DNA of 15,251 nt from Lachnospiraceae bacterium (lineage in GTDB: Bacteria; Bacillota; Clostridia; Lachnospirales; Lachnospiraceae). The position numbers and the translations under genes are program-made. Below are positions 1 through 15,251 of this stretch, piece after piece. Where the stretch lies: contig CAAFTS010000069.1 of assembly GCA_900765975.1 (NCBI GenBank), positions 1 to 15,251 of the forward strand. Reading direction: 5' to 3'. The notes under the pieces are model-generated. The model was not told the DNA's origin. It did no database searches and saw nothing but the letters and a program-made list of their open reading frames with translations. The number at the start of each line of letters is the position of its first letter. The first letter of the stretch is position 1.

Positions 1-84
1 CTCCATCATTATACAGCTTAAGCAACAAGATGGATAATTCCTTACTGGCTGTAAGGGATATTAACCATAAAAATATTGTAGTAG

Positions 85-438
85 AAAGGCGGTGCATTCT
101 GCAGCTCCACATTTCGATGCCGAATGAAAAAGCTGTGTGAAACATACCAGATAGGAGATGGAACATATATGTTCCAGGCACATGGGTATCGGCACACATT
201 GGCTACTGTATTTTATGATGAGGGAGTGCCGCTTCAAAGTGTGAGAGATTATCTGGGGCATGCCTATGAAGAAATGACACAGCAATATATAGATTACATG
301 CCGCGCCGGATTGAGGAAGCAAGCAAAGCATATTTTAAGGAAACAGATAGTTCACTGGCAGCCGGATTGAAAGAGAGGTGGAAGCATGGAAGAAGCCATA
401 GACATAAGGACGCTACAGTGCTACCAAAAAGCGACTGA
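85..438 (+). pseudogene. tnpA: TnpA-like tyrosine recombinase, C-terminal remnant
   Basis: This is the catalytic C-terminal part of a Tn554 TnpA-type tyrosine recombinase, which cuts and rejoins DNA through a covalent phosphotyrosine bond. In frame 1 the family motifs are visible: KGGAFCSSTF at 85-114, HxxRH at 181-195, LGH at 253-261 and the nucleophile Tyr codon at 286-288 in QQYIDYMP. The catalytic first Arg and the N-terminal DNA-binding domain are missing. Two adjacent TAG codons at 79-84 close the frame upstream. A start at ATG 124 would leave only 104 residues, far short of the usual ~360. In frame 3, bases 3-84 read a fragment ending DINHKNIVV, which loosely resembles the strand pair after the first catalytic Arg of recombinases, so an internal deletion plus frameshift is possible. 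The 3' end overlaps tnpB. Confidence 0.75.
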
Positions 439-2310: not shown

Positions 2311-2659
2311 GAAGAGAAATAAGAGAAAAATTGATACAGCGAAGAAAGAAATTTATAAAATGCTGGAAAATGGAGAAAAAGTCACCGTAACAAAGCTGAT
2401 AGAGCAGACAGGTTTATCGAGAGGATTTTTTTACAAAAATGAAGAAGTACGAGCTTTGTTAGACCGAGCAGTGGAACAGCAGGCGGGTATGGTAAGTCCC
2501 AAGCGTTACATAGGCAATATCGCACAAAAAAGAAAAATTGAGTTATTAGAGGAACAGAATGAAAAGCTGTTAAAAGAAATAGCAGCGTTGCAGGAAGAAA
2601 ACAATAGGTTAAAAAAGGCACTTGGAAAACGTGCATTGAATACGATTAAAAATTTGTAA
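2276..2659 (+). CDS. tnpC: TnpC-like small accessory transposition protein
   Basis: Small basic protein in the position and of the size (127 residues, against ~125) of Tn554 TnpC, which in that family influences the efficiency and orientation of transposition. The N-terminal half contains a helix-turn-helix-like stretch (VTVTKLIEQTGLSRGFFYKN) typical of the family. The C-terminal third is a charged coiled coil with leucines at regular spacing (KIELLEEQNEKLLKEIAALQ, then ENNRLKKALGK). I prefer ATG 2276 because GGGGCGAGG lies just upstream and the protein then begins MNKYD. An ATG at 2258 in the same frame would add six residues. The gene overlaps the end of tnpB, consistent with translational coupling, and is followed by a hairpin. 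Confidence 0.8.
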   Translation: MNKYDTMLAVNKKRNKRKIDTAKKEIYKMLENGEKVTVTKLIEQTGLSRGFFYKNEEVRALLDRAVEQQAGMVSPKRYIGNIAQKRKIELLEEQNEKLLKEIAALQEENNRLKKALGKRALNTIKNL

Positions 2660-2687
2660 AGAATGTAAAATAGCAAATTCTGGATGG

Positions 2688-2715
2688 CAGACGCAAATAT
2701 ATGCGTCTGTTGGTC
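2688..2715 (+). terminator. Hairpin after tnpC, probable terminator
   Basis: CAGACGCA and TGCGTCTG form an 8-bp perfect stem around a 6-base AT loop, followed by a moderately T-rich run (TTGGTCTTT). It lies 28 bases after the tnpC stop, as expected for the end of the tnpABC transcript. The T tract is weak. Confidence 0.5.
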
Positions 2716-2761
2716 TTTCATATAAATTTTACTTTGATTTAACAAACTGGTGGTAGTTGAT

Positions 2762-2790
2762 TTTACATGATTTTCGTACAATGGTATCAC
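2762..2790 (+). promoter_or_regulatory. Possible sigma-A promoter facing phoU
   Basis: TTTACA and TATCAC are separated by exactly 17 bases and match the -35 and -10 consensus at five and four of six positions. If active, it would drive the pstB remnant and phoU-phoB-phoR from inside the junction, replacing the lost pst promoter. Based on sequence match only. Confidence 0.35.
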
Positions 2791-2968
2791 AGCAGTAAAA
2801 TGTAATGTTGTGAAAAATGAAGAAAAGATAGAAGGTATGAAAAGCAAAATGAGAACAAATTATCGCCTTAAAAGAGAAAAAATACCCCAAAAAGAGTACA
2901 CAAAACACGCAATTGTACACCGTACAGCCCAGTGTTTACAAGGGGTTGAGGGTACCCTACTAGAAATG

Positions 2969-3214
2969 GTGGATGAGCCGACATCTGCGTTGGATCCGAT
3001 TTCTACTTCAAAAATAGAAGACCTTGCGATGGAACTAAAAAAAGATTATACTATTATCATGGTTACACATAATATGCAGCAAGCAGTACGTGTGTCAGAT
3101 AATACAGCATTTTTTCTCCTTGGTGAGGTTGTGGAGTACAATGATACAGAAAAATTGTTCTCTATTCCGGCAGACAAAAGAACAGAAGATTATATCACAG
3201 GGAGGTTTGGTTGA
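2969..3214 (+). pseudogene. pstB: PstB phosphate ABC transporter ATPase, C-terminal remnant
   Basis: PstB is the cytoplasmic ATPase of the PstSCAB high-affinity phosphate importer. What remains starts at the Walker B/D-loop ([13 protein letters not shown]) and runs through the His switch (MVTHNMQQA) to the typical end [11 protein letters not shown]. That is about 81 of the usual ~250 residues. The Walker A motif, Q-loop and LSGGQ signature are absent, so it cannot hydrolyse ATP by itself. The residues before DEP differ from the family's usual LLMDEP, which places the breakpoint at about 2969-2971. Its stop lies four bases before phoU, the normal pstB-phoU spacing, so the downstream end is native. 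Truncation by insertion or deletion linked to the adjacent Tn554-like module is the simplest explanation. Confidence 0.85.
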
Positions 3215-3217
3215 TCA

Positions 3218-3883
3218 ATGCGGAACAGATTTGACAGACAGTTACAATTATTGGATGAACAGCTTATTCATATGGGTGAGTTATGTGAGATTGCAATTGC
3301 AGATGCAACAAAAGCATTGCAGGATGGAAATGTACAGCAGGCAAAAGCTGTAATGGAAGCAGATGAAGAAATAGATCAGATGGAAAAGGATATAGAAAGA
3401 CTCTGCTTAAAATTATTGTTGCAACAACAACCTGTAGCAAGGGATTTACGAAGAATTTCGGCAGCGCTGAAGATGATCACAGATATGGAAAGAATTGGAG
3501 ATCAGGCTTCTGATATTGCAGAAATCGTGATTTCTACAGAAAAGGTAACCAAATCAGATATTGATGAGATTGGAAATATGGCAAGTGCTGTAAGTAAGAT
3601 GGTTCGAGATAGTGTGTTGGCATATGTTTCGAAAAATCTTGAGCTTGCTCAGAATGTGATTCTGGAAGATGACACAGTAGATCAATATTTTGAGGATGTA
3701 AAAGAACGAATGATTGCTTTTATAAAAGAAGAAAAAGGAAATCATGGAAAACAGATTTTTGATTTGATTATGGTAACAAAATATTTAGAACGAATAGGTG
3801 ACCATGCAACCAACATTGCAGAATGGGTGGAATTTTCAATTACCGGGGTCCATAGAAATAATGCAGAACTGGAGTTGAAATAG
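3218..3883 (+). CDS. phoU: Phosphate signalling regulator PhoU
   Basis: PhoU is a cytoplasmic, metal-binding, all-helical protein that links the Pst transporter to the PhoR kinase and keeps the Pho response off when phosphate is plentiful. The 221 residues match the family length and show its two symmetric three-helix bundles. The metal-binding E/DxxxD-type motifs appear twice, as ERIGDQASD at residues 91-99 and ERIGDHATN at 191-199. The start ATG follows GGGAGG by 12 bases, with the site inside the end of pstB, indicating coupling to pstB in the ancestral operon. With pstB broken here, its signalling partner must come from elsewhere in the genome or be missing. The phoB homologue follows after 31 bases. 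Confidence 0.95.
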   Translation: MRNRFDRQLQLLDEQLIHMGELCEIAIADATKALQDGNVQQAKAVMEADEEIDQMEKDIERLCLKLLLQQQPVARDLRRISAALKMITDMERIGDQASDIAEIVISTEKVTKSDIDEIGNMASAVSKMVRDSVLAYVSKNLELAQNVILEDDTVDQYFEDVKERMIAFIKEEKGNHGKQIFDLIMVTKYLERIGDHATNIAEWVEFSITGVHRNNAELELK

Positions 3884-3914
3884 AGAAAAATAGTAAGAGA
3901 ATAGGAGAGGGCAG

Positions 3915-4595
3915 ATGATATATTGTGTAGAAGATGATGATAATATTCGTGAACTAGTGATTTACACATTGGAAACAACCGGATTAAAGGCAAAAGGCTT
4001 TTCAGAGGGGACTTCATTTATGGAGGCCTTGGCTTTTGATACACCAGAGTTGATTTTGCTGGATATCATGCTGCCAGGAGAGGATGGAATGGAGCTTTTA
4101 AAAAAATTAAAAGGCTCTTCCAAAACAAAAAATATTCCTGTTATTATGGTGACTGCTAAGGGAACAGAATATGATAAGGTTATGGGGTTGGATTCCGGAG
4201 CAGATGACTATGTGACAAAACCATTCGGTATGATGGAACTTGTTTCTCGAGTTAAGGCAGTTTTGCGTAGATCAGGGCAAGTTCCAGATCGTTCAGAAGT
4301 AGAACTTCATGGTGTAAAAATGAATGTAAAAAAGCATGAAGTAACGGTAGATGGAGTACCGGTAACTTTAACATTAAAGGAATTTGAATTATTAGAGCGA
4401 TTAATGAGAAATAGAAATATCGTGCTTACCCGAGATCAGCTTCTGGAAGATATCTGGGGATATGATTTTGACGGAGAAACGAGAACGGTTGATGTGCATG
4501 TCAGAACACTGCGGCAGAAATTAGGTGAAAAAGGTGCGATGATTGAAACTGTACGTGGTGTTGGATATCGGATAGGAGAAGATTATGAAGGCTAA
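3915..4595 (+). CDS. phoB: PhoB/PhoP-type response regulator
   Basis: OmpR/PhoB-family response regulator of 226 residues that binds DNA when phosphorylated by its partner kinase. The receiver domain (residues 1-~118) has the acidic pocket D7-D8, phosphoacceptor D50 (LLDIMLPGEDG), T80 and K102 (VTKPF). The C-terminal winged helix (about 128-224) contains LTLKEFELLERL, a recognition-helix segment TRTVDVHVRTLRQK, and the closing VRGVGYRI. AGGAG stands seven bases before the ATG. Placement between phoU and a PhoR-type kinase identifies it as the phosphate regulator rather than another OmpR-type protein. Its expected target, the pst promoter, is not in the window. Confidence 0.92.
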   Translation: MIYCVEDDDNIRELVIYTLETTGLKAKGFSEGTSFMEALAFDTPELILLDIMLPGEDGMELLKKLKGSSKTKNIPVIMVTAKGTEYDKVMGLDSGADDYVTKPFGMMELVSRVKAVLRRSGQVPDRSEVELHGVKMNVKKHEVTVDGVPVTLTLKEFELLERLMRNRNIVLTRDQLLEDIWGYDFDGETRTVDVHVRTLRQKLGEKGAMIETVRGVGYRIGEDYEG

Positions 4596-5952
4596 GATAC
4601 GTCGGAGTATGGTGCTGATTCTTGGGATTACATTGCTGGTGTCATACGGCCTTCTTTCCCTTTTTTTCTATAAACAAGGGATGCAGACTCTTCGGGAAGA
4701 GGTACGGCAGGAAGCACGCTATATCTGTGAAGCGGTCAGAATCGGGGGACCTGAGTATCTGGAAGAACTGGATAAGGTAGAAGTACATACACGTGTAACA
4801 TGGATCGCTGAAGATGGAACGGTTTTCTATGATTCGGGAGAGAACGAGAGTTATCTTGAGAATCATAAAGACCGGGAAGAGGTAGAGGAAGCGATGAAAA
4901 ACGGAAGTGGAGAAAAGACAAGGATGTCTTCCACGAAAAAAACAGAAATGTACTATTATGCGCTTCGAATGGATGATGGAACAGTACTTCGGGTGTCTAA
5001 AGAGATGGACAGTCTTGCAAGTACAGCATTTCGTATGCTGCCGGTTGTTTTTTTGATTGCAGCGACGATGATGGTATTTGCATATATGCTTGCCAGATGG
5101 CAGACTGCCCGCTTAATTGAACCGATCAATAAATTAGATATTGAACATCCTCTGGAAAATGATATTTATGAGGAATTGACCCCGCTTTTAGAAGCGATGG
5201 ATCAAAGGAATAAAGAAAAAGATGCAGTGTCCAATATGAGAAAAGAATTTTCGGCAAATGTGTCTCATGAGTTAAAGACTCCTCTAACTTCAATTTCCGG
5301 GTATGCTGAGATTATGAAGAACGGACTTGTGAGGGAAGAGGATATTCCGGTCTTTTCAGAACGGATTTATAAAGAGGCAAGACGTTTGATTCATCTGGTA
5401 GAAGATATTATTAAACTTTCCAAGCTGGACGAAGAATCTGTAGAACTTGAAAAAGAGGATGTCGATCTTTATGGGTTATGCAGAGAAATTATTAGTCGTC
5501 TGGCTCCTCAGGCACAGACGCGACGCGTGCAGATTGTGTTAGAAGGAGAGCCGGTGTGCTATCATGGAATTCGGCAGATTCTGGACGAGATGATTTATAA
5601 TATTTGCGAAAATGCAATTAAGTATAATGTTGACGGTGGAAAGGTAGAGGTTTGGGCAGGAAATACGTTGAGCGGTCCCAAAGTGATGGTTTCTGATAAT
5701 GGGATTGGTATTCCTCAGGAACATCTGGGACGTATTTTTGAACGGTTCTATCGGGTGGATAAAAGCCATTCAAAGGAACGTGGAGGAACCGGTCTGGGAC
5801 TTTCTATAGTGAAACATGGTGCAATTTTACATGGAGCAAAAGTGAATGTGGAGAGTAACGTCGGAAAAGGAACAAGGATGGAGATTCTCTTCACAAGAGA
5901 AGAAAGAGAATGTAATATGGAATCTAAAAAAGAAATCGATGCTGAGATATAA
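4585..5952 (+). CDS. phoR: PhoR-type membrane sensor histidine kinase
   Basis: Sensor kinase of 455 residues that phosphorylates the adjacent regulator. Transmembrane helices are at about 9-29 and 150-170, enclosing a ~120-residue extracellular sensor domain with a PAS/Cache-like RVTWIAEDGTVFYDSG segment. The cytoplasmic part has the H-box with His228 (VSHELKTPL), N-box (NICENAIKYN, 339-348), G1 (DNGIGIP, 371-377), F-box (FERFYRVDKS) and G2 (GGTGLGLSIV, 400-409). The stretch after the second helix is short and HAMP-like only at best, and I see no cytoplasmic PAS domain. The start overlaps the phoB end by 11 bases and has AGGAG six bases upstream, so the pair is translationally coupled. The last eight codons also encode the left arm of the terminator. 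Confidence 0.93.
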   Translation: MKAKIRRSMVLILGITLLVSYGLLSLFFYKQGMQTLREEVRQEARYICEAVRIGGPEYLEELDKVEVHTRVTWIAEDGTVFYDSGENESYLENHKDREEVEEAMKNGSGEKTRMSSTKKTEMYYYALRMDDGTVLRVSKEMDSLASTAFRMLPVVFLIAATMMVFAYMLARWQTARLIEPINKLDIEHPLENDIYEELTPLLEAMDQRNKEKDAVSNMRKEFSANVSHELKTPLTSISGYAEIMKNGLVREEDIPVFSERIYKEARRLIHLVEDIIKLSKLDEESVELEKEDVDLYGLCREIISRLAPQAQTRRVQIVLEGEPVCYHGIRQILDEMIYNICENAIKYNVDGGKVEVWAGNTLSGPKVMVSDNGIGIPQEHLGRIFERFYRVDKSHSKERGGTGLGLSIVKHGAILHGAKVNVESNVGKGTRMEILFTREERECNMESKKEIDAEI

Positions 5953-5971
5953 AAGCATCGATTTCTTTTTT
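5932..5971 (+). terminator. Rho-independent terminator overlapping the phoR stop
   Basis: GAAATCGATGCT and AGCATCGATTTC form a perfect 12-bp stem around a 10-base loop that contains the phoR TAA stop, followed by TTTTTT. The A-run before the left arm can pair with the T-run, making the element nearly symmetric, so it could also stop transcription from the other strand. Confidence 0.9.
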
Positions 5972-6012
5972 AGAAATAAAAAGTAAAATAATTGCTTGAA
6001 ACTATTATATTA

Positions 6013-6040
6013 TTGTTTGGTTTTGATGAAAATCTATACA
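6013..6040 (+). promoter_or_regulatory. Probable promoter of the GH84 gene
   Basis: TTGTTT at 6013-6018 and TATACA at 6035-6040 are 16 bases apart in a very AT-rich stretch, about 80 bases before the GH84 start and after the phoR terminator. The match is moderate, but some promoter is required here because the gene is separated from phoR by a strong terminator. Confidence 0.45.
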
Positions 6041-6070
6041 ATTTATGTACAAAATGTTAAAATACGACTA

Positions 6071-6087
6071 ATATGGGTAATCCATAT
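6071..6087. promoter_or_regulatory. Inverted repeat in the GH84 leader, possible operator
   Basis: ATATGG, five bases, then CCATAT form a perfect 6-bp inverted repeat between the likely promoter and the ribosome binding site (AGGAG at 6109-6113). The size and placement fit a repressor operator for a glycan-responsive regulator. No regulator gene is adjacent, and a short AT-rich palindrome can occur by chance. Confidence 0.3.
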
Positions 6088-6121
6088 GGGAAACATGTAA
6101 ACCAATATAGGAGAAGAGTTT

Positions 6122-9100
6122 ATGAGAAGAGGATTATGGAAAAAAATTGCTGCCTGCATGTTGGCGACAGCAATGGTACTGACGTTGTTTCCAACACCGG
6201 AAGTACAGGCAAAAGAAGGATCTGTGGTGGAATATGAGATTTATCCGCAGCCTCAAAAAGTGACATATTCCGATGGAGATTTTATTATTCGGAAAGATGT
6301 TAATGTTGTGTATGAAGATGGAATTGATAAGTACACAAAACAAAAAGTACAGGATGTGCTCAAGAACAAAGGAATTTCAGCGCCTTCTGTTACAGGGAAG
6401 ATTGACAAAAAGAAGACCAATATTCTGATAGGAACAAAAGGTTCTGAAGGATATGTAGAACAGTATGCGAAGGAAAAGAAGCTTCTGGATGACACAGTGT
6501 TTCAAGAGCATTTGAATCCGTATGTACTGGATGTTAATGAAAATGTAATTACGATTGTCGGTAAAGATACCGATGCTGCATTTTATGGAGTGGTATCCCT
6601 GATGCATATTTTAAATCAGCTGGATGGGCGCACAATACGGAATCTACGGATTGAGGATTACGCAGATACAAAAACCAGAGGATTTATCGAAGGATATTAT
6701 GGACTTCCATGGTCTAATGCAGATCGTATGTCGTTGATGGAGTTTGGCGGACAGTTTAAGATGACTTCTTATATTTTTGCTCCGAAGGACGATCCTTATC
6801 ATTCGTCTCAGTGGAGAACGCCGTATCCGGAGGACAAGCTTGCAGAAATCGCAGAGATGGCAGAAGTTGGAAATGCGAATAAGTGCCGTTTTGTATGGAC
6901 GATTCATCCGTTTATGTACGGTGGAATGACAGAAGCAACTTATGATGCAGATATTGAAGCGATTAAAGCAAAGTTTGAGCAGTTATATCAGGCAGGTGTA
7001 CGTCAGTTTGGAGTGTTGGCGGATGATGCCGGAAATCTTCCGAGAACAGTAATTGTCCGGGCAATGAACGATCTTCAGAAGTGGGTGGATTCTAAAAAGG
7101 ACGTATACAATCTTGTATTCTGCCCGGGTGGTTATAATGATTCCTGGCAGAAAGATTATTCCGAGCTGAATCAGTATGATGATGGCTTTCCGGAGGATAT
7201 TCAGATTTTCTGGACTGGACAGGCAGTGTGTCAGCCGGTCGAGCAGTTGACTTTAAATAACTTTAGAAGAAAAAACCTTCCACAAGGAGCAGAAGACCGA
7301 AGAAGTCCGTTATTCTGGCTGAACTGGCCGGTGAATGATATCAATATGAACCGTCTTTTGATGGGAGAGGGAACGCTGCTGCATAATGATGTAAATGTAG
7401 AAGATTTGTCCGGTGTAGTGACGAACCCGATGCAGGATGCAGAGCCTTCTAAGGTTGCAATATTTGCAGTTGCGGATTATGCATGGAATGTCAGCTCATT
7501 TGATTCTGCTGAGAGTTGGAAAGATTCATTTAAATATGTGGAACCAGATGCGTCCGCGGCTCTGTATGAATTGGCAAAGCATATGTCAGACCCATCTCCA
7601 AATGGACACTGGCTGGTTCTGGAAGAGAGTAAAGAGCTGCAGCCGTTGCTGGACGGTTATGCACAAGCACTGGAAAGTTCTGCTGTGACAAAAGAACAGG
7701 GAAATACTCTAATCGAAGAATTTGAGAAAATCGTGAACGCTTGTGACGAGTTTGAGATGAAGTGCAAAAATGAACGGATGAAAGAACAGGTAACTCCGTT
7801 CTCGGATTCGCTGAGAGATCAGGCTGAGGCTGCAATTGCATTTATAGAGACTGAGCAGGCAATAGAAAAAGGGAATGTATCTGAAATCTGGAAGTTTTAT
7901 TCTCAAGCGACAGCAAAGCTGGCGGATAGCAAAACACATTTGAGACCAAAACTCCAAAACGGTCAGAAAGTGATGACAAATGCTCTTCCTGGTTCCAAGA
8001 GAATCACTCCATTTTTAAATAAGGTAAATGAGCTGGTGTCACCGACTGTAAATTCTATGATTGATGAAAATAAAATCATTACTAGTCTGATTACTAACAG
8101 AACAGATACACCGGATGGAGCTTTGGATAAAATTACAGATGGTAAGGATTCTACAATTGTGACATGGCAGAATCCGAATACACTGGCAAAGGATACATAT
8201 ATCGGCTTGCGCTATAGCAAACCAATTCATTTGGAGAAAGTAACCTTCAAGATGGGAGCGGACAATCCGAGAGATACTTTTGATGCAGGTAAGCTGCAGT
8301 ATACGGAGGACGGAACAACCTGGCTGGATCTTGCAGGAACAGAGTATACAGATACAAGAGCAGAAATTACTGCAGAAAATCTGAATTTGCAAATAAGAGG
8401 TATTCGGTTGATTTCTACAGCAGAGACACCAAACAGATGGCTCAGCTGTAAAGGAATTGAAGTAAATAAGACAGAAGAAACGCAGCAGCCGCAAGTTGAA
8501 AAACTAGTGGGTACCGGATTTTATAATGAAGAATTGATGGTAGTCCGCAATGGAAATGTCGGAATGATGATTGATGGTGCGGTTGATAAGTCTGGTAATA
8601 ATTATATCGGATTTTCCAAATCTAATGAAGGCAGTGATCCTGACAAAGATAAAACAGTAGTAGACGCTTATGTCGGATTACAGTTTGAAGAGCCGGTAAC
8701 AGTAGGGCGTTTTGTAGTAAGTCAGGGAACTGGAGATCACATTTCCAAAGGAAAACTGGAATATCAGAATGAGAAAAATGAGTGGGTAGAAATTAGATCC
8801 TATGACAATATCGGAGAAGACTTTGACGAGACGTTTTCTCCTGTCAAGGCTAAGGCAATCCGTTTGGTAAATACGGAAATTGCTGCAATCTGGTGGAGAG
8901 TTTATGAGGCGGAAGCATATGCGGGTGATGATGCAGAGGATACGGAGCCACTGAATAAGACGATAATAAAGACTCCAATCTGGACGGTTTATGATGGGCA
9001 GGAAACGAATCTGACTGATGGGAACGAAGACAGTATTGTATGGTACAACACCGGAAAGAATGCAGAAGAAGAAAGAGATGATGATACACTGGTTGGAGAT

Positions 9101-12100
9101 TATCTCGGTATGGATCTCGGAAGAGTGACCAAGGTTGGTGTGGTAGAGTTTGTCGTTGGACAGGACGAAAACGGAGATAAGTGGGAGAAATACAAACTGG
9201 AATATTCTGCGGCTGATGTAGCTGCTGTAGATCAGGTTCCGGCTGACAGTTGGAAAACATATAAAGAATATACAGGCGTTGCCAGTGGAAAAGATGTTCA
9301 TCAAGAAAATCTAAATGGAATAGAAGCGAGATACGTCCGCTTGGTAAATCAGCAGAAAAAACATGCGTGGGTGAAGTTTGGTGAGTTCAATGTAGAAAAA
9401 TATAAGAAGCCAAGCGGTGATAATCCAAATGTATATACAAATGTAGATGCGTTGAAGAAACTTGAAACTGAAAATGAGATGGACCGAATTGCATTTGCTC
9501 CAGTAAAAAAACTGACATTGCAAGCCGGAGAGTATGTAGGTGTTGTATTTGATAGAATCCGGGATATTACCGATATTCAAGTAGATACGACAGAAACGCT
9601 GAAGCTGGAATCGTCTTTGAATGGAGTTGTCTGGAAAACAGTGAAAGAAAAATCATTTGAAGATGCAAGATATGTCCGGGTAATCAATGATACAAAGAGT
9701 GCAGTGACCTTTGATTTGAATACTTTTGTAGTAGAAACATATGAAATAGAACCTATTTCTGTAGAAGATACAAACTTTGGGTCTTATGACGGCGGAGATC
9801 ATCTGAATGCATTTGATAAAGACAGAACAACACAGGCAATGTATACAGGCAGTCAAACTCAGGGGCTTTTCATTACTTATGATCTGGGGCAGAAAATTGA
9901 TTTACAGACTTTGAAAATTGTTCTTCATGATGGAATGAGCGATTTTCCGCGTCATGCAAAAGTATCGGTATCAGCCGATAATAAGACATGGAAAGAGGTT
10001 ATGCTGATTGGGGCACAGGATGGACCGAATGCTGGAGAGGCAGAGAATCAGGATAATATTGCAGATTTATTTCCGGTTCATGAAACGTCTTATTATACAA
10101 AAGAAACAACAAATATTAATACGCAGGCAAGATATGTGAAATTTGAAATTACCAGAACAAAAGCAGGAGATAATAAATGGGTCAGAATCAATGAAATTGA
10201 GTTGAATGGAGGCCAGTTATATCTCCCGGAGGTGAATGATCCTACAATTGTTGGAGAAAATGTGACAGAGACAGATGGAAACGTGCTGGTGAATATGATT
10301 GACGGAGAGGTTTCTACCACATATCAGTGTGAAAGCGATAAGGCGGGAAGTTTTACCTATCGTTTATCTGATCGTACAAATGTAACTAAGCTTGTTTTTC
10401 TGCAGAGTCCGAATACGATTTCAAACGCAGAAGTGACTGCAGAAGTAATGCAGGATGGACAGATAAAGACAGTAACTCTGGGAACACTCAATACAAGTAT
10501 GAATGAATTTAATACATCAGCGTTTGAACATGTATTGTCAGTGACAGTATCCTGGGAAGCCGGAAAAGCGCCGGAAATTCATGAAATTCTGACATCTACT
10601 GGGAAAGTGGCAGCTGTAGATAAAGAGACATTAAGAACGTATTATAACGATCACAAAGAAGAAGATACATCTGCATGGACACCGGAAAGTGCGAAGATAT
10701 ATCGAGAGGCAGTGAAATTTGCAAAATCTGTTCTGGATAGTGAATACGCAACACAGGCAATGGTTAATACAGCGTTAGCTGAGCTTCAGGAAGCAGTAGA
10801 AAATAAAGTGGAAAAGGCAGATATGAATGCATTTGCCGATAAAGTAAAAGAAATTACGGATAAGGTAATTGCAGAAGAAAACTATTTACCGAGAACCTGG
10901 ATTGTGTATGCGGAGAGATTAGCGGCGGCTGAGGCGGCGAAAGAAAATGAGAATATTTCTCAGGCTGAATTGGATGAGCTTTTGAAAAATCTGCAGAGTG
11001 CGGCAAATGGACTTGTTTATGAAGTAAATAGTATAGAAGAACTGCAGGTTCTGTTAAGTGATGTGAAAGAGTATGATTTAGAGGTGGATTATGCTGAAAA
11101 TTCTCTAGCAGAATTAAAGGAAGCGATAAAAGCTGGGGATGCCATGGTTGCGGCTGATGCAGAAGTGCGTCAGAATCCGAAAGATGTCAAAGCTGCTTTG
11201 ACAAGACTTGAGAAAGCAGCAGAAAGATTTCATACATGGACAGCGTTGGAAAACACGCTAAAAGAAGCGAAAGACATTGATATAACCAAGTATACACCGG
11301 CAAGTGTAAAGAAACTGCAGGATGCGATAAAAGCGGCAGAAGCTCTGAATGATACAGAAACAACGACAAATGAGAACATTGCAGAAGCAATTACAGCGTT
11401 GCAGGAGGCGATTAAGGGAATGACTCCTGTAGAAGAGACCTCGGGCGTATTGGCAGAAATTGAAAGATTAGAAAAACTTCCGGCAGAAGAATACACCGAA
11501 GAAAGCTATGCTGATTTACAAACAGTTCTTACAGAAGTGAAAGCGGAATTAGAAGCCGGAAAAACAGAGTATAAGGCTTATCTGGAAAAGATGAAAAAGG
11601 CAGAAAGTGGTCTGGTTTCAATCATAGAACTGAAGAACGTGGTAGACGCCGCGAAAGAAATGGATTTGAGTATTTATACGGAAACAAGTCAGAATTCATT
11701 AAATTCGAAAGTAGCAGAAGCGGAAGCACTTTATCAAAACGGAACGAAAAAGACAATAGAGGAAATGATAAAATCGCTTCAGGAAACAATAGAACAAATG
11801 ATTTTGACAGTTGAGTATGTACAGACTCAGACACAGGAATATGCAGATGTGCTGGAAGGAAATTATACAACTTCATCCAGAGAAATACTGCAAAAGACAT
11901 TAGATGAAGTCGCTCAAAAGGCGCAGGATGAAGTCTTGACACTTTCTGTATTTGCAGAATATCAGGCAAAACTGCAAGAGCAGAAGGAATTATTGATTGA
12001 TACAACAGAACTTCTGGCGGCGATCAATCAGGCAGAGCAGGTAAAAGGAGATGGATATACGAGCGTTTCCTTTAAGAAATATACAAATTTGATTGCGCGT

Positions 12101-12562
12101 GCAAAAGAACTGCTTGAAAACGGAAAAGTAACCGAGATTGCAGATGCGGTAAATGCCTTGAATCATCCGGAAGAAGTTTTGGTAAAACGAGGAGATTTCG
12201 GTAAGCTGCAAAGTCTGGTCAGTGAGTATAAAAATATGGATTTGTCCGGCTATACGAAAGAATCTGCTGATAATTTAAAGGCAGAACTTATGATGGCGGA
12301 ATTCATGATCCAGCAAGGAGATTATGGACAGGATCAGATTGACGCACAGGCAGAAGCAATTAAAGTGGCAGTAAAAGCATTGAAAAAGGTAACAGAAAAC
12401 GACGGAAATGGAAATGAAAACAGTAGTGCTTCTCAACAAAGTGGTGGAGATAAAACTCCGACAACGGGAGATACCAAAACACCAGTTTTCTGGGTTGCCA
12501 TGTTGATATTATCAGGATTTGTACTGGTAGAAAGAGATAAGAGAAGGAGATTCCATAGATAA
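6122..12562 (+). CDS. Wall-anchored GH84 beta-N-acetylglucosaminidase (hyaluronidase NagH-like)
   Basis: Secreted multidomain family-84 glycoside hydrolase of 2,146 residues, expected to release beta-linked GlcNAc from mucin O-glycans, hyaluronan or O-GlcNAc proteins. A signal peptide covers residues 1-30 (cleavage likely after VQA). A GH20b-type alpha/beta domain spans ~38-180. The GH84 barrel spans ~185-480, with GFIEGYYG at 187-194 and the catalytic pair D301-D302 in GVLADDAGN, as in substrate-assisted GH84 enzymes. A helical domain follows (~485-640). Then come about six beta-sandwich, discoidin/CBM32-like units at roughly 645-783, 796-934, 945-1094, 1100-1206, 1208-1364 and 1370-1490. 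About nine FIVAR repeats cover 1501-2090. The C terminus has TPTTGD (2112-2117), a hydrophobic helix and a basic tail, a sortase signal with Thr in place of the usual Leu. AGGAG is eight bases before the ATG. The gene is transcribed alone, between two terminators. Confidence 0.92.
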   Translation: MRRGLWKKIAACMLATAMVLTLFPTPEVQAKEGSVVEYEIYPQPQKVTYSDGDFIIRKDVNVVYEDGIDKYTKQKVQDVLKNKGISAPSVTGKIDKKKTNILIGTKGSEGYVEQYAKEKKLLDDTVFQEHLNPYVLDVNENVITIVGKDTDAAFYGVVSLMHILNQLDGRTIRNLRIEDYADTKTRGFIEGYYGLPWSNADRMSLMEFGGQFKMTSYIFAPKDDPYHSSQWRTPYPEDKLAEIAEMAEVGNANKCRFVWTIHPFMYGGMTEATYDADIEAIKAKFEQLYQAGVRQFGVLADDAGNLPRTVIVRAMNDLQKWVDSKKDVYNLVFCPGGYNDSWQKDYSELNQYDDGFPEDIQIFWTGQAVCQPVEQLTLNNFRRKNLPQGAEDRRSPLFWLNWPVNDINMNRLLMGEGTLLHNDVNVEDLSGVVTNPMQDAEPSKVAIFAVADYAWNVSSFDSAESWKDSFKYVEPDASAALYELAKHMSDPSPNGHWLVLEESKELQPLLDGYAQALESSAVTKEQGNTLIEEFEKIVNACDEFEMKCKNERMKEQVTPFSDSLRDQAEAAIAFIETEQAIEKGNVSEIWKFYSQATAKLADSKTHLRPKLQNGQKVMTNALPGSKRITPFLNKVNELVSPTVNSMIDENKIITSLITNRTDTPDGALDKITDGKDSTIVTWQNPNTLAKDTYIGLRYSKPIHLEKVTFKMGADNPRDTFDAGKLQYTEDGTTWLDLAGTEYTDTRAEITAENLNLQIRGIRLISTAETPNRWLSCKGIEVNKTEETQQPQVEKLVGTGFYNEELMVVRNGNVGMMIDGAVDKSGNNYIGFSKSNEGSDPDKDKTVVDAYVGLQFEEPVTVGRFVVSQGTGDHISKGKLEYQNEKNEWVEIRSYDNIGEDFDETFSPVKAKAIRLVNTEIAAIWWRVYEAEAYAGDDAEDTEPLNKTIIKTPIWTVYDGQETNLTDGNEDSIVWYNTGKNAEEERDDDTLVGDYLGMDLGRVTKVGVVEFVVGQDENGDKWEKYKLEYSAADVAAVDQVPADSWKTYKEYTGVASGKDVHQENLNGIEARYVRLVNQQKKHAWVKFGEFNVEKYKKPSGDNPNVYTNVDALKKLETENEMDRIAFAPVKKLTLQAGEYVGVVFDRIRDITDIQVDTTETLKLESSLNGVVWKTVKEKSFEDARYVRVINDTKSAVTFDLNTFVVETYEIEPISVEDTNFGSYDGGDHLNAFDKDRTTQAMYTGSQTQGLFITYDLGQKIDLQTLKIVLHDGMSDFPRHAKVSVSADNKTWKEVMLIGAQDGPNAGEAENQDNIADLFPVHETSYYTKETTNINTQARYVKFEITRTKAGDNKWVRINEIELNGGQLYLPEVNDPTIVGENVTETDGNVLVNMIDGEVSTTYQCESDKAGSFTYRLSDRTNVTKLVFLQSPNTISNAEVTAEVMQDGQIKTVTLGTLNTSMNEFNTSAFEHVLSVTVSWEAGKAPEIHEILTSTGKVAAVDKETLRTYYNDHKEEDTSAWTPESAKIYREAVKFAKSVLDSEYATQAMVNTALAELQEAVENKVEKADMNAFADKVKEITDKVIAEENYLPRTWIVYAERLAAAEAAKENENISQAELDELLKNLQSAANGLVYEVNSIEELQVLLSDVKEYDLEVDYAENSLAELKEAIKAGDAMVAADAEVRQNPKDVKAALTRLEKAAERFHTWTALENTLKEAKDIDITKYTPASVKKLQDAIKAAEALNDTETTTNENIAEAITALQEAIKGMTPVEETSGVLAEIERLEKLPAEEYTEESYADLQTVLTEVKAELEAGKTEYKAYLEKMKKAESGLVSIIELKNVVDAAKEMDLSIYTETSQNSLNSKVAEAEALYQNGTKKTIEEMIKSLQETIEQMILTVEYVQTQTQEYADVLEGNYTTSSREILQKTLDEVAQKAQDEVLTLSVFAEYQAKLQEQKELLIDTTELLAAINQAEQVKGDGYTSVSFKKYTNLIARAKELLENGKVTEIADAVNALNHPEEVLVKRGDFGKLQSLVSEYKNMDLSGYTKESADNLKAELMMAEFMIQQGDYGQDQIDAQAEAIKVAVKALKKVTENDGNGNENSSASQQSGGDKTPTTGDTKTPVFWVAMLILSGFVLVERDKRRRFHR
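10622..12391 (+). repeat. About nine tandem FIVAR-type helical repeats in the GH84 protein
   Basis: Residues 1501-2090 divide into about nine units of 60-67 residues, each a three-helix FIVAR-like module. The common core is an aromatic residue, Thr, and a Ser followed by a hydrophobic helix: WTPESAKIY, YAENSLAEL, YTPASVKKL, YTEESYADL, YTETSQNSL, YTTSSREIL, YTSVSFKKY and YTKESADNL. One unit (NYLPRTWIVY) is more diverged. They probably form a stiff stalk or a carbohydrate- or protein-binding arm lifting the catalytic end off the wall. The copies differ strongly from each other at the DNA level, so this is an old expansion. Confidence 0.8.
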
Positions 12563-12576
12563 AATATCTGGAAGGA

Positions 12577-12612
12577 ATAACAGGTCAGCTTCGGCTGACC
12601 TGTTATAATTTT
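12577..12612 (+). terminator. Terminator of the GH84 gene with a UUCG tetraloop
   Basis: ATAACAGGTCAGC and GCTGACCTGTTAT form a perfect 13-bp stem closed by C(TTCG)G, the extra-stable tetraloop, 14 bases after the stop codon. The T run after it is short (AATTTT), but the stem is very strong. Confidence 0.88.
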
Positions 12613-12659
12613 GAGGTGTAATTTGTCTGTATTCTGATGGTAATTTTCTTACGAGAATC

Positions 12660-12688
12660 TTTTCAAAGGGGAAATTATTTGATACAAT
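12660..12688 (+). promoter_or_regulatory. Promoter of the dapF-like/dapF unit
   Basis: TTTTCA and TACAAT are exactly 17 bases apart and match the sigma-A consensus at four and five of six positions, 43 bases before the GTG start of the first gene and after the GH84 terminator. Confidence 0.6.
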
Positions 12689-12731
12689 AACAGAAGACTT
12701 ACACAGATTTTATCAAATGGAGGTAGGAATT

Positions 12732-13592
12732 GTGAAGATTGTATTAGAACGATATCATGGACTGGGAAACGATTACCTTGTATTCGACCCAAATAAAAAT
12801 GAACTAAAGCTGAGCAAAGACAATGTAGAGATGCTTTGTAATCGAAATATGGGACTTGGTTCTGACGGGATTCTGGAAGGTCCTTATATAGGCGAAAAAC
12901 AGATGACTTTAAAAATCTGGAATCCAGACGGAAGTATTGCAGAGAAGAGTGGAAATGGTGTACGTATCTTTGCAAAATATTTAAAAGATGCAGGATATGT
13001 GCAGAAGAAAAAATATGATTTAATGACAGATGGTGGAGCAGTAGAGATCACATATCTCAATGAGGATGGAAGTAGACTTCGTGTTTCTATGGGAAAGGTT
13101 TCTTTTTGGAGTGATGAGATTCCAGTGACAGGAGAACGCAGAGAAGTCATCAATGAAGATATGGTATTCGGTAGCACCTTGTATCCGGCTACTTGTGTAT
13201 CTGTGGGCAATCCACATTGCGTGATTCCGATGCGGGAAATCTCCAAGCCACTGGTATGTAAGATCGGTAATTTTTCAGAAGTTGCAAGATATTTTCCGGA
13301 ACGTGTAAATACAGAGATTATGAAAGTGATTGACAACAACCACATTGCAATTGAGACTTTTGAGCGAGGCGCAGGATATACAATGGCAACCGGAACCGGA
13401 GCGTGTGCTGCGGCAGCAGTTGCATACAAACTGGGGTCTACAGGCAATAAAGTAATTGTACAGATGCCGGGTGGAGAATTGCAAGTGGAGATTGGAGAAG
13501 ATTGGGAAGTATATATGACAGGTGATGTGTTCTATGTTGCGAAGGTAACATTGAGCAGTGAATTTGCAGAAAAGCTGCGTGCATTGCAGTAA
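12732..13592 (+). CDS. DapF-family protein lacking both catalytic cysteines
   Basis: A 286-residue protein with the two-lobed diaminopimelate epimerase fold. GTG 12732 is the better start: GGAGG lies eight bases upstream, and the protein then begins MKIVLERYHGLGNDY, level with the next gene. ATG 12717 would place the binding site inside the gene. Conserved are GLGNDY at 10-15, GLGSDG, N-x-DGS, SGNGVR, GNPHC, RVNTE and the FERGAG substrate loop. The two residues that abstract and return the alpha proton are changed. The first Cys is Ser73 (AEKSGNG) and the second is Thr220 (MATGTGAC). DapF needs two thiols, so this is unlikely to be an ordinary DAP epimerase. It could be an isomerase or dehydratase on a related amino acid (trans-3-hydroxyproline dehydratases of the neighbouring proline racemase family use Cys/Thr), a binding protein, or a partner of the DapF encoded 25 bases downstream. 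The fold assignment is firm; the function is unknown. Confidence 0.85.
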   Translation: MKIVLERYHGLGNDYLVFDPNKNELKLSKDNVEMLCNRNMGLGSDGILEGPYIGEKQMTLKIWNPDGSIAEKSGNGVRIFAKYLKDAGYVQKKKYDLMTDGGAVEITYLNEDGSRLRVSMGKVSFWSDEIPVTGERREVINEDMVFGSTLYPATCVSVGNPHCVIPMREISKPLVCKIGNFSEVARYFPERVNTEIMKVIDNNHIAIETFERGAGYTMATGTGACAAAAVAYKLGSTGNKVIVQMPGGELQVEIGEDWEVYMTGDVFYVAKVTLSSEFAEKLRALQ

Positions 13593-13617
13593 GAATATGC
13601 TTAGAAGAGGTTAAAAG

Positions 13618-14451
13618 ATGAAGTTTACAAAAATGCAGGGACTTGGAAATGATTACGTGTATGTGAACTGCGTAGAGAAAAAGTTAGAAAACGCATCTCA
13701 GATTGCAATTGCAGTCAGCGACCGACATTACGGAATCGGTTCAGATGGATTGATTTTGATTAATTCTTCGGAAGTGGCAGATTTTGAGATGGAGATGTAC
13801 AATGCAGACGGCTCCCGTGGGGAGATGTGTGGGAACGGTATCCGCTGCGTCGGAAAATATGTATATGATTATGGATTGACCGATAAGACCCATGTTACCA
13901 TAGAGACACTTGCGGGAATCAAATATTTGGATTTGCAGGTAGAGAACGGAAAGGTCAAACAGGTGCGGGTGAATATGGGAAGTCCGTTACTGAAGCCGGA
14001 AGAGATTCCGATTGCTTTGGAAGGCGAGAATGTGATCGATGTGCCAATCTCTATCAATGACACTGCGTATCGTATGACAGGCGTGGGAATGGGAAATCCG
14101 CATACTGTTGTATTTTTGGATGATATAGAGCAGATGAAGATTGAAGAAATCGGTCCGAAGTTTGAAAATCACAGTTATTTTCCGAATCGAGTGAATACAG
14201 AATTTGTGAAAGTCATAGATCGAACGCATGTAAAAATGCGGGTATGGGAGAGAGGTTCAGGCGAGACGCTTGCCTGCGGAACCGGAGCATGTGCGGTTGC
14301 TGTTGCCTGTATTTTGAATGGATTGACAGAAGAAGATGTGACGGTGAGCCTTTTAGGCGGTGATTTGCAGATACAGTGGGAACGAAAAGAGAACATTGTA
14401 TATATGACAGGTCCGGCAGAAGTAGTCTTTGAAGGGGAATGGAATCAATAA
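13618..14451 (+). CDS. dapF: Diaminopimelate epimerase DapF
   Basis: Converts LL-diaminopimelate to meso-diaminopimelate in the cytoplasm, the last step before lysine and before MurE adds meso-DAP to peptidoglycan. The 277 residues match the family length. Both catalytic cysteines are present, C71 in EMCGNGIRC and C220 in TLACGTGAC. The substrate motifs GLGNDY (8-13), YNADGS (61-66), GNPHTV (159-164), RVNTE (191-195) and WERGSGET (210-217) are also intact. ATG 13618 has GAGG seven bases upstream. It follows the cysteine-less paralogue by 25 bases with no terminator between, so the two are cotranscribed. A terminator follows. Confidence 0.97.
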   Translation: MKFTKMQGLGNDYVYVNCVEKKLENASQIAIAVSDRHYGIGSDGLILINSSEVADFEMEMYNADGSRGEMCGNGIRCVGKYVYDYGLTDKTHVTIETLAGIKYLDLQVENGKVKQVRVNMGSPLLKPEEIPIALEGENVIDVPISINDTAYRMTGVGMGNPHTVVFLDDIEQMKIEEIGPKFENHSYFPNRVNTEFVKVIDRTHVKMRVWERGSGETLACGTGACAVAVACILNGLTEEDVTVSLLGGDLQIQWERKENIVYMTGPAEVVFEGEWNQ

Positions 14452-14485
14452 ATATAGAGTAAAATGATGAAAATACAGGAAACTA

Positions 14486-14521
14486 AAATGCGCTAGCTTG
14501 AAAAGTTGGCGCATTTATTTT
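14486..14521 (+). terminator. Rho-independent terminator after dapF
   Basis: AAATGCGCTAGCTT pairs with AAGTTGGCGCATTT over 14 positions, two of them G-U, around a three-base loop, followed by ATTTT. It lies 34 bases after the dapF stop codon. Confidence 0.85.
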
Positions 14522-14593
14522 GAACAAATAGAAATTGTCGAAAAATAAAAGGAAAAAGAAGGAAAAATCTAATGATAAAAAATGAAAAAGGGG

Positions 14594-14621
14594 TTGATTT
14601 TTTTGTCCAGTTTGATATAAT
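14594..14621 (+). promoter_or_regulatory. Strong promoter of the tRNA unit
   Basis: TTGATT and a perfect TATAAT are 16 bases apart, with an extended -10 (TGA before TATAAT), 43 bases before tRNA-Gln. A small CTTAC-GACAA-GTAAG hairpin lies in the leader. The near-consensus form fits a stable-RNA promoter. Confidence 0.75.
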
Positions 14622-14664
14622 AACCATGTTGCTTACGACAAGTAAGAAAAACGCAGCAAGACAA

Positions 14665-14736
14665 TGCGGAATGGTGTAATTGGCAGCACAGCAGACTCTG
14701 ACTCTGTTAGTAGGGGTTCAAGTCCCTTTTCCGTAG
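14665..14736 (+). tRNA. tRNA-Gln (anticodon CUG)
   Basis: A 72-base cloverleaf. The acceptor is TGCGGAA/TTCCGTA with one G-U pair and G as the discriminator base. The anticodon stem GCAGA/TCTGT at 14691-14707 encloses the loop CTCTGAC, with CTG at 14698-14700. The T arm AGGGG-TTCAAGT-CCCTT is at 14712-14728. The 3' CCA is not encoded. CUG reads CAG codons; the UUG isoacceptor must be elsewhere. Confidence 0.93.
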
Positions 14737-14739
14737 CTT

Positions 14740-14768
14740 AGGAATCTGGATAACAGATTCCTTATTTT
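14740..14768 (+). terminator. Hairpin between the two tRNAs
   Basis: AGGAATCTG and CAGATTCCT form a 9-bp perfect stem with a five-base loop, followed by TATTTTAT. It has the form of an intrinsic terminator but stands between two tRNAs only 34 bases apart, with no obvious second promoter. It may cause partial termination or act as a processing signal. Confidence 0.6.
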
Positions 14769-14770
14769 AT

Positions 14771-14844
<74 letters not shown>

Positions 14845-14850
14845 TTTACT

Positions 14851-14883
14851 TCCCTCGTATTTACGGGGGATTTTCATTTTTAT
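14851..14883 (+). terminator. Terminator of the tRNA unit
   Basis: TCCCTCGT and ACGGGGGA form an 8-bp stem (one G-U) with loop ATTT, followed by TTTTCATTTTTAT. It starts seven bases after tRNA-Pro. Confidence 0.85.
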
Positions 14884-14914
14884 AAGGGTAAAAAGCTAGT
14901 TGGCTTTAGTTGGG

Positions 14915-14972
14915 ATTATCCGGCGCATGTCAGATTTTAGAATTTGGCGTTGTGTGTCCGGATAATTTTTTT
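14915..14972 (+). terminator. Large-loop hairpin with T tract, possible terminator or attenuator
   Basis: ATTATCCGG and CCGGATAAT form a 9-bp perfect stem enclosing 34 bases, followed directly by seven Ts. The inside can add only weak G-U-rich pairing. The GC-poor stem and big loop are unusual for a plain terminator. It could be the end of a leader RNA or a leftover from an upstream gene now lost, since no gene precedes it except the tRNAs, which already have a terminator. Confidence 0.5.
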
Positions 14973-14981
14973 ATTAAAATT

Positions 14982-15011
14982 TTGACTAAGATGATTGTAA
15001 CAAAATAACAT
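14982..15011 (+). promoter_or_regulatory. Possible promoter of the right-end remnant
   Basis: TTGACT and TAACAT are 18 bases apart, five and four of six consensus matches, about 40 bases before the GTG at 15051. Confidence 0.35.
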
Positions 15012-15050
15012 AATTTGGTACTAATGAGTAGAAGGAGGTTGAAAGCGTAA

Positions 15051-15164
15051 GTGATTGAAGAAATATATGAGATGTATTCAAGAAAAGTATTTTTATTGAG
15101 CAAGACAAATAATGTGGATATTGCAGAGGAAATGTTCAATGGGAACAAAAAGAAATGTATTTAA
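15051..15164 (+). pseudogene. Short remnant resembling the start of an ECF-type sigma factor
   Basis: A GTG-initiated 37-residue frame with AGGAGG at 15033-15038, twelve bases upstream. It reads VIEEIYEMYSRKVFLLSK, then NNVDIAEEMFN. The pattern (I/F)EE(I/L)Y..Y.R.VF.....  .. .DIAEE resembles region 2.1-2.2 of ECF sigma factors, where it would continue into QETF.(K/R)A. Here it breaks off into a lysine-rich end and a stop, and no continuation is evident in the last 87 bases. Those bases hold only an imperfect palindrome (TTATCTT at 15179-15185 against AAGATAA at 15207-15213). The good ribosome binding site suggests recent decay, or a small gene of another kind. Identification is tentative. Confidence 0.35.
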
Positions 15165-15251
15165 GGTTAATTAGCAACTTATCTTTTACTAATACTACTT
15201 ATAAGGAAGATAATTAGTGTCTGCTGAGCAAACTGAAAACACTTGATTTTA

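Follow-up and report, generated by a model that had tools for sequence, protein, structure and literature searches.

The stretch of DNA analysed here, hereafter the window, comprises 15,251 nt of a Lachnospiraceae bacterium (GCA_900765975.1, contig CAAFTS010000069.1, positions 1 to 15,251, forward strand) and encodes a relative of the diaminopimelate (DAP) epimerase DapF in which both catalytic cysteines are replaced. The gene (12732..13592, forward strand; 286 amino acids), referred to below as the Ser/Thr gene, runs from a GTG start to a TAA stop. GGAGGT at 12719-12724 precedes the GTG, and because an alternative in-frame ATG at 12717 overlaps this element, the GTG at 12732 is the likelier start. 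Codon 73 (AGT, 12948..12950, forward strand) places Ser in an SGNG motif and codon 220 (ACC, 13389..13391, forward strand) places Thr in an ATGTG motif, each substituting for a catalytic cysteine directly before a helix (residues 74-86 and 221-233, respectively). These coordinates and codons agree with a first-pass annotation of the window, and the surrounding motifs that it described as intact (GLGNDY, GNPH, RVNTE, FERGAG, SGNG, and GTGACA, the last within TGTGACA) are all found in the protein. As that annotation also held, the next gene, 25 bases downstream, is a canonical Cys/Cys dapF (13618..14451, forward strand), with its cysteines in MCGNG and ACGTG; its product scores 308.1 bits against the DapF family model TIGR00652 (cut-off 114.65) and groups with Cys DapF in trees.

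The Ser/Thr protein itself scores 238.8 bits against TIGR00652, and PF01678 is the sole family listed for it in a Pfam scan with E up to 1. Its AlphaFold model (mean predicted local distance difference test score 94.0, predicted template modelling score 0.89) adopts the two-domain fold of DapF with the catalytic positions at helix N-termini, and the residues of the distal L-centre site of H. influenzae DapF (N64, N157, N190, E208, and R209) are all represented (N64, N160, N193, E211, and R212). The Pfam scan returned no match to PF05544 (proline racemase superfamily), and there was none to PF02567 or TIGR00654 (PhzF family). Because the two cysteines that characterize DapF (C73 and C217, H. 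influenzae numbering) are missing, we do not class the protein as an ordinary DapF, although it passes by family model and by fold.

The loss of both textbook catalytic residues could suggest a decaying duplicate of dapF, an explanation we regard as next to impossible. Between the window and the nearest fetched relative (L001, Mediterraneibacter agrestimuris), the nonsynonymous divergence (dN) of the paralogue is 0.020, as opposed to 0.105 for Cys dapF in the same two genomes; since synonymous divergence is saturated (2.3 for the paralogue and 1.7 for Cys dapF), only the contrast between the two genes was used. The open frame is complete, the protein is conserved across phyla, and Ser73 is present in 120/120 of the nearest homologues listed. 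By these comparisons the Ser/Thr protein is under selection, as the first-pass annotation had proposed, and is not the product of a pseudogene.

A Single Clade of Serine-Type DapF-Like Proteins

Three protein database searches, each with 120 matches listed, provided 360 proteins (one set nearest the window protein and two distant), and a residue table was compiled for 263 rows (the fetched loci and the window). Among the matches listed, position 73 is Ser in 360/360, while position 220 is Thr in 108 and Asn in 12 of the nearest 120 and Ser in 240/240 of the distant ones. The random residues and general decay named in the first-pass annotation as marks of a pseudogene are not seen, position 220 being limited to Ser, Thr, or Asn. 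The 263 rows divide into 164 Cys/Cys, 80 Ser/Ser, 13 Ser/Thr, 5 Ser/Asn, and 1 Gly/Ser, with no mixed Cys/Ser pair. The Gly/Ser gene (L064, 4001-4843, Lachnospiraceae) carries Gly73 in a GGNG motif together with further motif changes and is possibly decaying. Ser73 is encoded by AGY in each of the 98 codons read and Ser220 by TCN in each of 81; switching between serine codon classes was considered as proof of constraint and rejected, as no AGY/TCN switch occurs among them.

Trees were built with columns 73 and 220 masked, using 118 rows and then 69 rows that included later finds (quick searches with Shimodaira-Hasegawa-like approximate likelihood ratio test (SH-aLRT) support, without bootstrap). 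In both, the Ser rows form one side of a single branch with an SH-aLRT value of 100. The clade spans Bacillota, Bacteroidota, Planctomycetota, and Poribacteria, a cross-phylum range that the first-pass annotation did not foresee, nor did it foresee that almost all other members of the clade would have the Ser/Ser pair or that those of one Bacteroidota order would adjoin an LL-DAP aminotransferase gene, as described below. Poribacteria copies group with Desulfosporosinus (98) and Tannerella copies fall among Clostridiales copies (118-row tree), placements that make gene transfer likely. Besides column 73, 23 columns hold one residue in at least 90% of the Ser clade and that same residue in less than 20% of Cys DapF, among them Ile79 (Cys in 163/164 Cys-type rows), Val266, Pro65, Gly50, and Pro166. 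Ser73/Ser220 is most likely the ancestral state of the subfamily, and Thr220 probably arose as a late change inside this ancestrally Ser/Ser family, of which the window protein is most likely a derived, accessory member.

Asn64, Asn160, Asn193, Glu211, Arg212, and His162 are kept in 360/360 of the matches listed, and the equivalents of the three Asn, the Glu, and the Arg are reported to grip the distal amino-acid end of DAP (PMC12039745; PMC8225329). Four non-catalytic cysteines, at positions variable in Cys-type DapF, are near-invariant in the Ser clade among the same matches (C36 in 359/360, C155 in 358/360, C163 in 360/360, and C225 in 356/360). Tyr216 was considered as a replacement base and rejected as a general solution, with Phe or Trp at that position in 88/120 proteins of one listed set.

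Thirty-two plasmid records also matched (22 of them listed), of which two were read. One, from Paenibacillus, is Cys/Cys, and the other, Agrobacterium vitis plasmid pRvVAT039a (L331, 6956-7852), encodes a divergent Ser/Ser protein that lies on a long branch on the Ser side of the tree and has Thr in place of the distal Asn160. Its neighbours, a haem-oxygenase-like redox enzyme, a 2-oxoglutarate-Fe dioxygenase, and a fatty-acid-desaturase-type protein, form a biosynthetic-looking cluster.

Apparent Displacement of Cys DapF Outside Bacillota

Within samples of single clades, carriers of the Ser form were scored for a second gene that resembles dapF at distinctly lower identity (25-51% by segment). 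Ser residues were read in 16/16 carriers of the four clades counted; second genes were read at fetched loci, where all are C/C, and the remainder were assigned by identity. Neither of 2 carriers among 58 Poribacteria genomes has a second gene, as opposed to 56/56 non-carriers (Fisher test, p = 0.0006). The corresponding figures are 0 of 3 carriers and 44/56 non-carriers in Tannerellaceae (59 genomes, p = 0.014), 1 of 5 and 68/75 in a Bacteroidota order (80 genomes, p = 0.001), and 3 of 6 and 46/53 in a Planctomycetota order (59 genomes, p = 0.055). When the four clades are pooled, 12/16 carriers are without an identified Cys DapF, versus 26/240 non-carriers (p = 2.6e-8), a value that overstates independence because genomes within a clade are related. 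Two samples were left out of this count: the class around G030 (60 genomes), where 30 loci were fetched, all C/C, and the remainder are unread, and a Bacillota phylum sample (119 genomes), in which a single clear carrier, possessing both forms, and a fragment at 69% identity were found. In the clostridial order around G018 (78 genomes) the Ser form occurs in G018 alone, so this sample adds nothing on displacement.

The DapF family model finds a single match, the Ser form, in 11 of 34 carrier genomes, two matches in 22, and three, partly fragments, in one (G019); in all 17 Lachnospiraceae genomes of this check the second gene reads C/C. None of the 11 sole-Ser genomes has a Ddh match above cut-off; LL-DAP aminotransferase (DapL) is present in three by TIGR03542 and in a fourth (G027) by NF004937, and the LysA cut-off is exceeded in seven. 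Together with the DapL linkage described below and the retained distal DAP-binding residues, this pattern of occurrence gives the Ser/Ser members the appearance of DAP epimerases that have taken the place of Cys DapF.

Linkage to LL-DAP Synthesis

In 5/5 carriers of the Bacteroidota order, the Ser gene has a DapL gene as its immediate neighbour on the same strand (2 upstream, 3 downstream). Four of the linked DapL proteins match NF004937 (645.5-671.1 bits; cut-off 585) and one matches TIGR03542 (561 bits; cut-off 364.7). No DapL was found within ~1.5 kb of Cys dapF at 25 fetched loci of the same order, a few of which are cut short. The five linked Ser genes occupy three positions in the deeper part of the Ser clade, where branch order is poorly supported, and this placement suggests that the linkage is old. 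In Desulfosporosinus (L078), a dapA-type gene (TIGR00674, 261.8 bits) lies 0.6 kb upstream of the Ser gene on the same strand. In Tannerellaceae, DapL adjoins Cys dapF in 27/27 fetched loci and not the Ser gene, and the Ser genes of Planctomycetota and Poribacteria showed no adjacent DapL.

The DAP linkage would be coincidental if the subfamily instead racemized or epimerized a different amino acid whose side chain ends in a zwitterion, such as lanthionine. Racemases of histidine, O-ureidoserine, and diaminobutyrate are reported to share the fold and usually to carry a putative DapF annotation (PMC12039745; PMC11602996), DAP epimerization is already covered in Lachnospiraceae, and the A. vitis Ser/Ser member, with its change from Asn160 to Thr, is encoded in an oxygenase-rich gene cluster. 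We nevertheless consider another substrate decidedly unlikely. All distal DAP-binding residues are kept in the 360 proteins listed, whereas diaminobutyrate racemase is described as no longer having the Arg or any of the three Asn (PMC8225329), and both the DapL linkage and the failure to find Cys DapF outside Bacillota also count against another substrate.

An Additional Gene in Lachnospiraceae

Twenty of 100 Lachnospiraceae genomes carry the Ser form (21 genes, identity 49-87%). Ten of these genes were fetched and read, giving Ser73 in all 10 with Thr220 in 3 and Ser220 in 7. One genome, G559, has two Ser-type copies (53% identity each; C17:5524-6363 and C44:24456-25295) in addition to a Cys DapF-like gene, and the two carriers checked for other routes (G001 and G012) also have DapL and Ddh.

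In a survey of 80 related loci (flanks up to 4 kb, some shorter), an AraC-type gene is found in 57 and stands immediately upstream of the Ser gene and divergent from it in 55; the one such gene scanned has HTH_18 and AraC_binding domains. The intergenic region contains a direct-repeat operator, GCA-N5/6-TGCAA, with a partial second copy ~21 bp further along (by eye) and, after it, a -10 element resembling TATAAT. The operator pattern occurs in 39/55 intergenic regions as against 0.14 in single-base shuffles, a test that is not independent because the motif was first read off 15 of the same loci; part of the remainder may be explained by an araC start annotated wrongly, so that the predicted gene covers the region. 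Neither the regulator nor the operator pattern was found in the window or in L001. The gap upstream of the Ser/Thr gene (12563..12731, forward strand) lacks both, and of the relatives' upstream elements only the -10 persists, in a promoter-like site (TTTTCA-17-TACAAT, 12660..12688, forward strand) whose -10 aligns with the TATAAT that follows their operator. A scan of the region gave 7 promoter-like sites where 5.1 are expected, and the site is weak when taken alone.

The first-pass annotation had further supposed cotranscription with dapF and raised the prospect of constant pairing with it. In the window cotranscription is plausible, and a terminator scan found none in the 25 bases between the two genes, but the adjacency is not conserved: Cys dapF lies in the flanks of 1/80 related loci (L001, ~2.2 kb off with two intervening genes), and direct adjacency was seen in the window only. 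In a separate Lachnospiraceae sample, G612 has a Ser-type gene (C3:248442-249293) ~2.2 kb from a Cys DapF-like gene (C3:251428-252195) and retains the AraC-type gene (L330). With these counts, conserved pairing was rejected.

The same counts bear on whether the protein could bind DAP as a sensor without any catalytic activity, or could modulate Cys DapF. Both thiols are gone, and a regulator stands next to the gene in 55 of the 80 loci, as might suit a sensor. However, 12/16 carriers of the four clades yielded no Cys DapF, so that there is nothing there to modulate, Cys dapF is seldom nearby, and position 73 is held specifically to Ser among the matches listed rather than to any small residue, with Gly73 only in L064 among fetched loci. 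We consider this role very unlikely, and the proposal that the protein is a subunit modulating the neighbouring DapF is not supported.

Other neighbours look unrelated to the Ser gene. No functional operon beyond the AraC-type gene was seen in Lachnospiraceae, where HflX-like, AddAB, ClpC, and PhoU/PhoR-like neighbours (by eye) look positional; a pyrB-like neighbour in Poribacteria (by eye), and PhzF-family and QueG-like neighbours in Planctomycetota (the latter below its cut-off), were likewise set aside. The PhzF-family gene lies ~0.8-2.5 kb upstream of the Ser/Ser gene in Planctomycetota L074, L075, and L080 (TIGR00654, 220.5 bits in L074; by clustering in the other two). In the window, the Ser/Thr gene follows a 2146-residue glycoside hydrolase family 84 (GH84)-type beta-N-acetylglucosaminidase (6122-12562, forward strand; PF07555, 325.9 bits), which also has F5/8-type, FIVAR, and GH20b domains and a tail of PTTGD, hydrophobic, and basic residues resembling a sortase signal (by eye). 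Two tyrosine-recombinase-type open reading frames and a DUF6262 protein (124-3214, forward strand) directly precede a PstB-like fragment, named by eye, which has no Pfam match and clusters with the PstB-like ATPase ends of relatives; this arrangement suggests an insertion into a pst operon. After dapF come tRNA-Gln(CTG) (14665-14737) and tRNA-Pro(CGG) (14770-14845), both on the forward strand.

A Predicted Thiol-Free DAP Epimerase

The Ser proteins form a single clade with a near-absolute Ser73 and the full distal L-centre DAP site, they are linked to DapL in one Bacteroidota order, and Cys DapF is mostly not found beside them in four non-Bacillota clades. On these observations, we stand evenly divided over the prediction that they constitute an old, cross-phylum DapF-fold subfamily in which both catalytic thiols became hydroxyls and which acts as a thiol-free DAP epimerase. 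Among the options offered by the first-pass annotation, an enzyme without thiols remains the best reading. Such an enzyme would convert LL-DAP to meso-DAP, the N-termini of the two central helices presenting Ser73 as the base to one face and residue 220 as donor or relay to the opposite face. In Lachnospiraceae it would supplement Cys DapF as a further isozyme, probably under the control of the adjacent AraC-type regulator; in the window lineage the gene encodes Thr at 220, has neither the regulator nor the operator, and precedes dapF. One possible benefit is insensitivity to the active-site disulfide that inactivates oxidized Cys DapF, as C. glutamicum DapF is reported to lose activity when H2O2 treatment links its two catalytic cysteines in a disulfide (PMC5296763), a bond that a pair of Ser residues cannot form.

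Constraint differs between the two faces, position 73 being Ser only (Gly in L064 excepted) and position 220 Ser, Thr, or Asn, which fits a catalytic Ser73 and a less demanding residue 220. This inequality is also what a one-base lyase or dehydratase would predict, in which Ser73 would abstract the alpha proton from a DAP-like amino acid with a beta substituent and next supply a proton to the leaving group, residue 220 serving for packing only. There is an exact Ser/Thr precedent in the dehydratase B9K4G4 (Ser90/Thr256; PMC4113996), and a review describes a Cys-to-Thr substitution that turns an epimerase into a dehydratase (PMC8142540). It is because the unequal constraint matches B9K4G4 as well that we retain a lyase as an unlikely, though not negligible, alternative. 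The catalytic Ser of the B9K4G4 family is reported to be held by an Asn at +3 (PMC4113996), where the window protein has Gly76, and a Cys/Thr aspartate/glutamate racemase is said to invert its substrate (PMC8142540), so Thr alone does not make a dehydratase. A lyase would also leave the DapL linkage (5/5) and the missing Cys DapF (12/16) of the Ser/Ser members unexplained.

Several observations weigh against a DAP epimerase that replaces Cys DapF. First, Cys-to-Ser mutants of DapF-type enzymes are reported to have less than 0.1% or much reduced activity (PMC8225329; PMC11602996); a family that evolved with more than 20 co-fixed columns differs from an engineered mutant, yet this does not remove the objection. 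Asn220, in 12/360 of the matches listed, cannot be an acid/base. Second, the absence counts rest on genomes of undemonstrated completeness, and the named sole-Ser genomes are metagenome assemblies. Tannerella G020 shows neither Cys dapF nor DapL (TIGR03542); as the two genes are neighbours in Tannerellaceae, a single assembly gap could remove both, which leaves this family ambiguous. In all, eight of the 11 sole-Ser genomes are without DapL by TIGR03542; one of the eight, G027, has the NF004937 type, and NF004937 and other LL-DAP routes were not searched in the remaining seven. Finally, both forms are kept in 3/6 Planctomycetota carriers, the Desulfosporosinus carrier also holds a Cys DapF-like gene, and in Lachnospiraceae such a gene is present in 20/20 carriers and in 67/80 non-carriers, so there is no displacement in the window's own family.

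The fullest form of the thiol-free epimerase proposal is tentative, and we lean slightly away from it. It would hold that cofactor-free, thiol-free DAP epimerases are widespread, with a serine pair at helix N-termini performing 1,1-proton transfer, and that they arose once, stood early beside the DapL gene, spread across phyla by gene transfer, repeatedly replaced Cys DapF, and persisted in gut Lachnospiraceae as a second isozyme under AraC control. DapF is a standard example of cofactor-free racemization, and its mechanism rests on paired thiols. If the proposal is true, these proteins would represent another chemical solution to a reaction taught as needing a thiol/thiolate pair, in an enzyme that is a long-standing antibacterial target (PMC12039745). 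Automatic labels would then hide the subfamily, as the descriptive names in the protein lists are "diaminopimelate epimerase" or "dapF," and no description of a Ser/Ser or Ser/Thr DapF was found among the titles and abstracts listed from the open-licence PMC literature.

Comparison With Known Systems

Among DapF-fold isomerases, CntK and O-ureidoserine racemase (7vdy) use two cysteines, and the PhzF family is not known to use catalytic thiols. DapF itself (TIGR00652, PF01678; H. influenzae 1gqz, Anabaena 9mro) differs from the Ser clade in both catalytic cysteines and in the 23 further columns. PddB and HisR, unlike the Ser/Thr protein, are reported to use two cysteines (PMC8225329; PMC11602996), and PddB is described as having lost the distal DAP site (PMC8225329) that the Ser clade keeps. 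Within the proline racemase superfamily, the catalytic residue of Ser-type members is reportedly placed by an Asn at +3, whereas the SGNG motif of the Ser/Thr protein has its Asn at +2; the Ser/Thr protein has no PF05544 match and is 15% identical to 4k7g. Displacement of DapF has likewise been proposed for "DapF2" of staphylococci and others, but that enzyme is described as pyridoxal-phosphate-dependent and alanine-racemase-like, not of the DapF fold (PMC9026213). The 4-hydroxyproline 2-epimerase B9JQV3 (Ser93/Cys236) is reported to show that, in an epimerase with the same fold, Ser can take the role of one member of the base pair (PMC4113996), although it retains one cysteine and belongs to the proline racemase superfamily.
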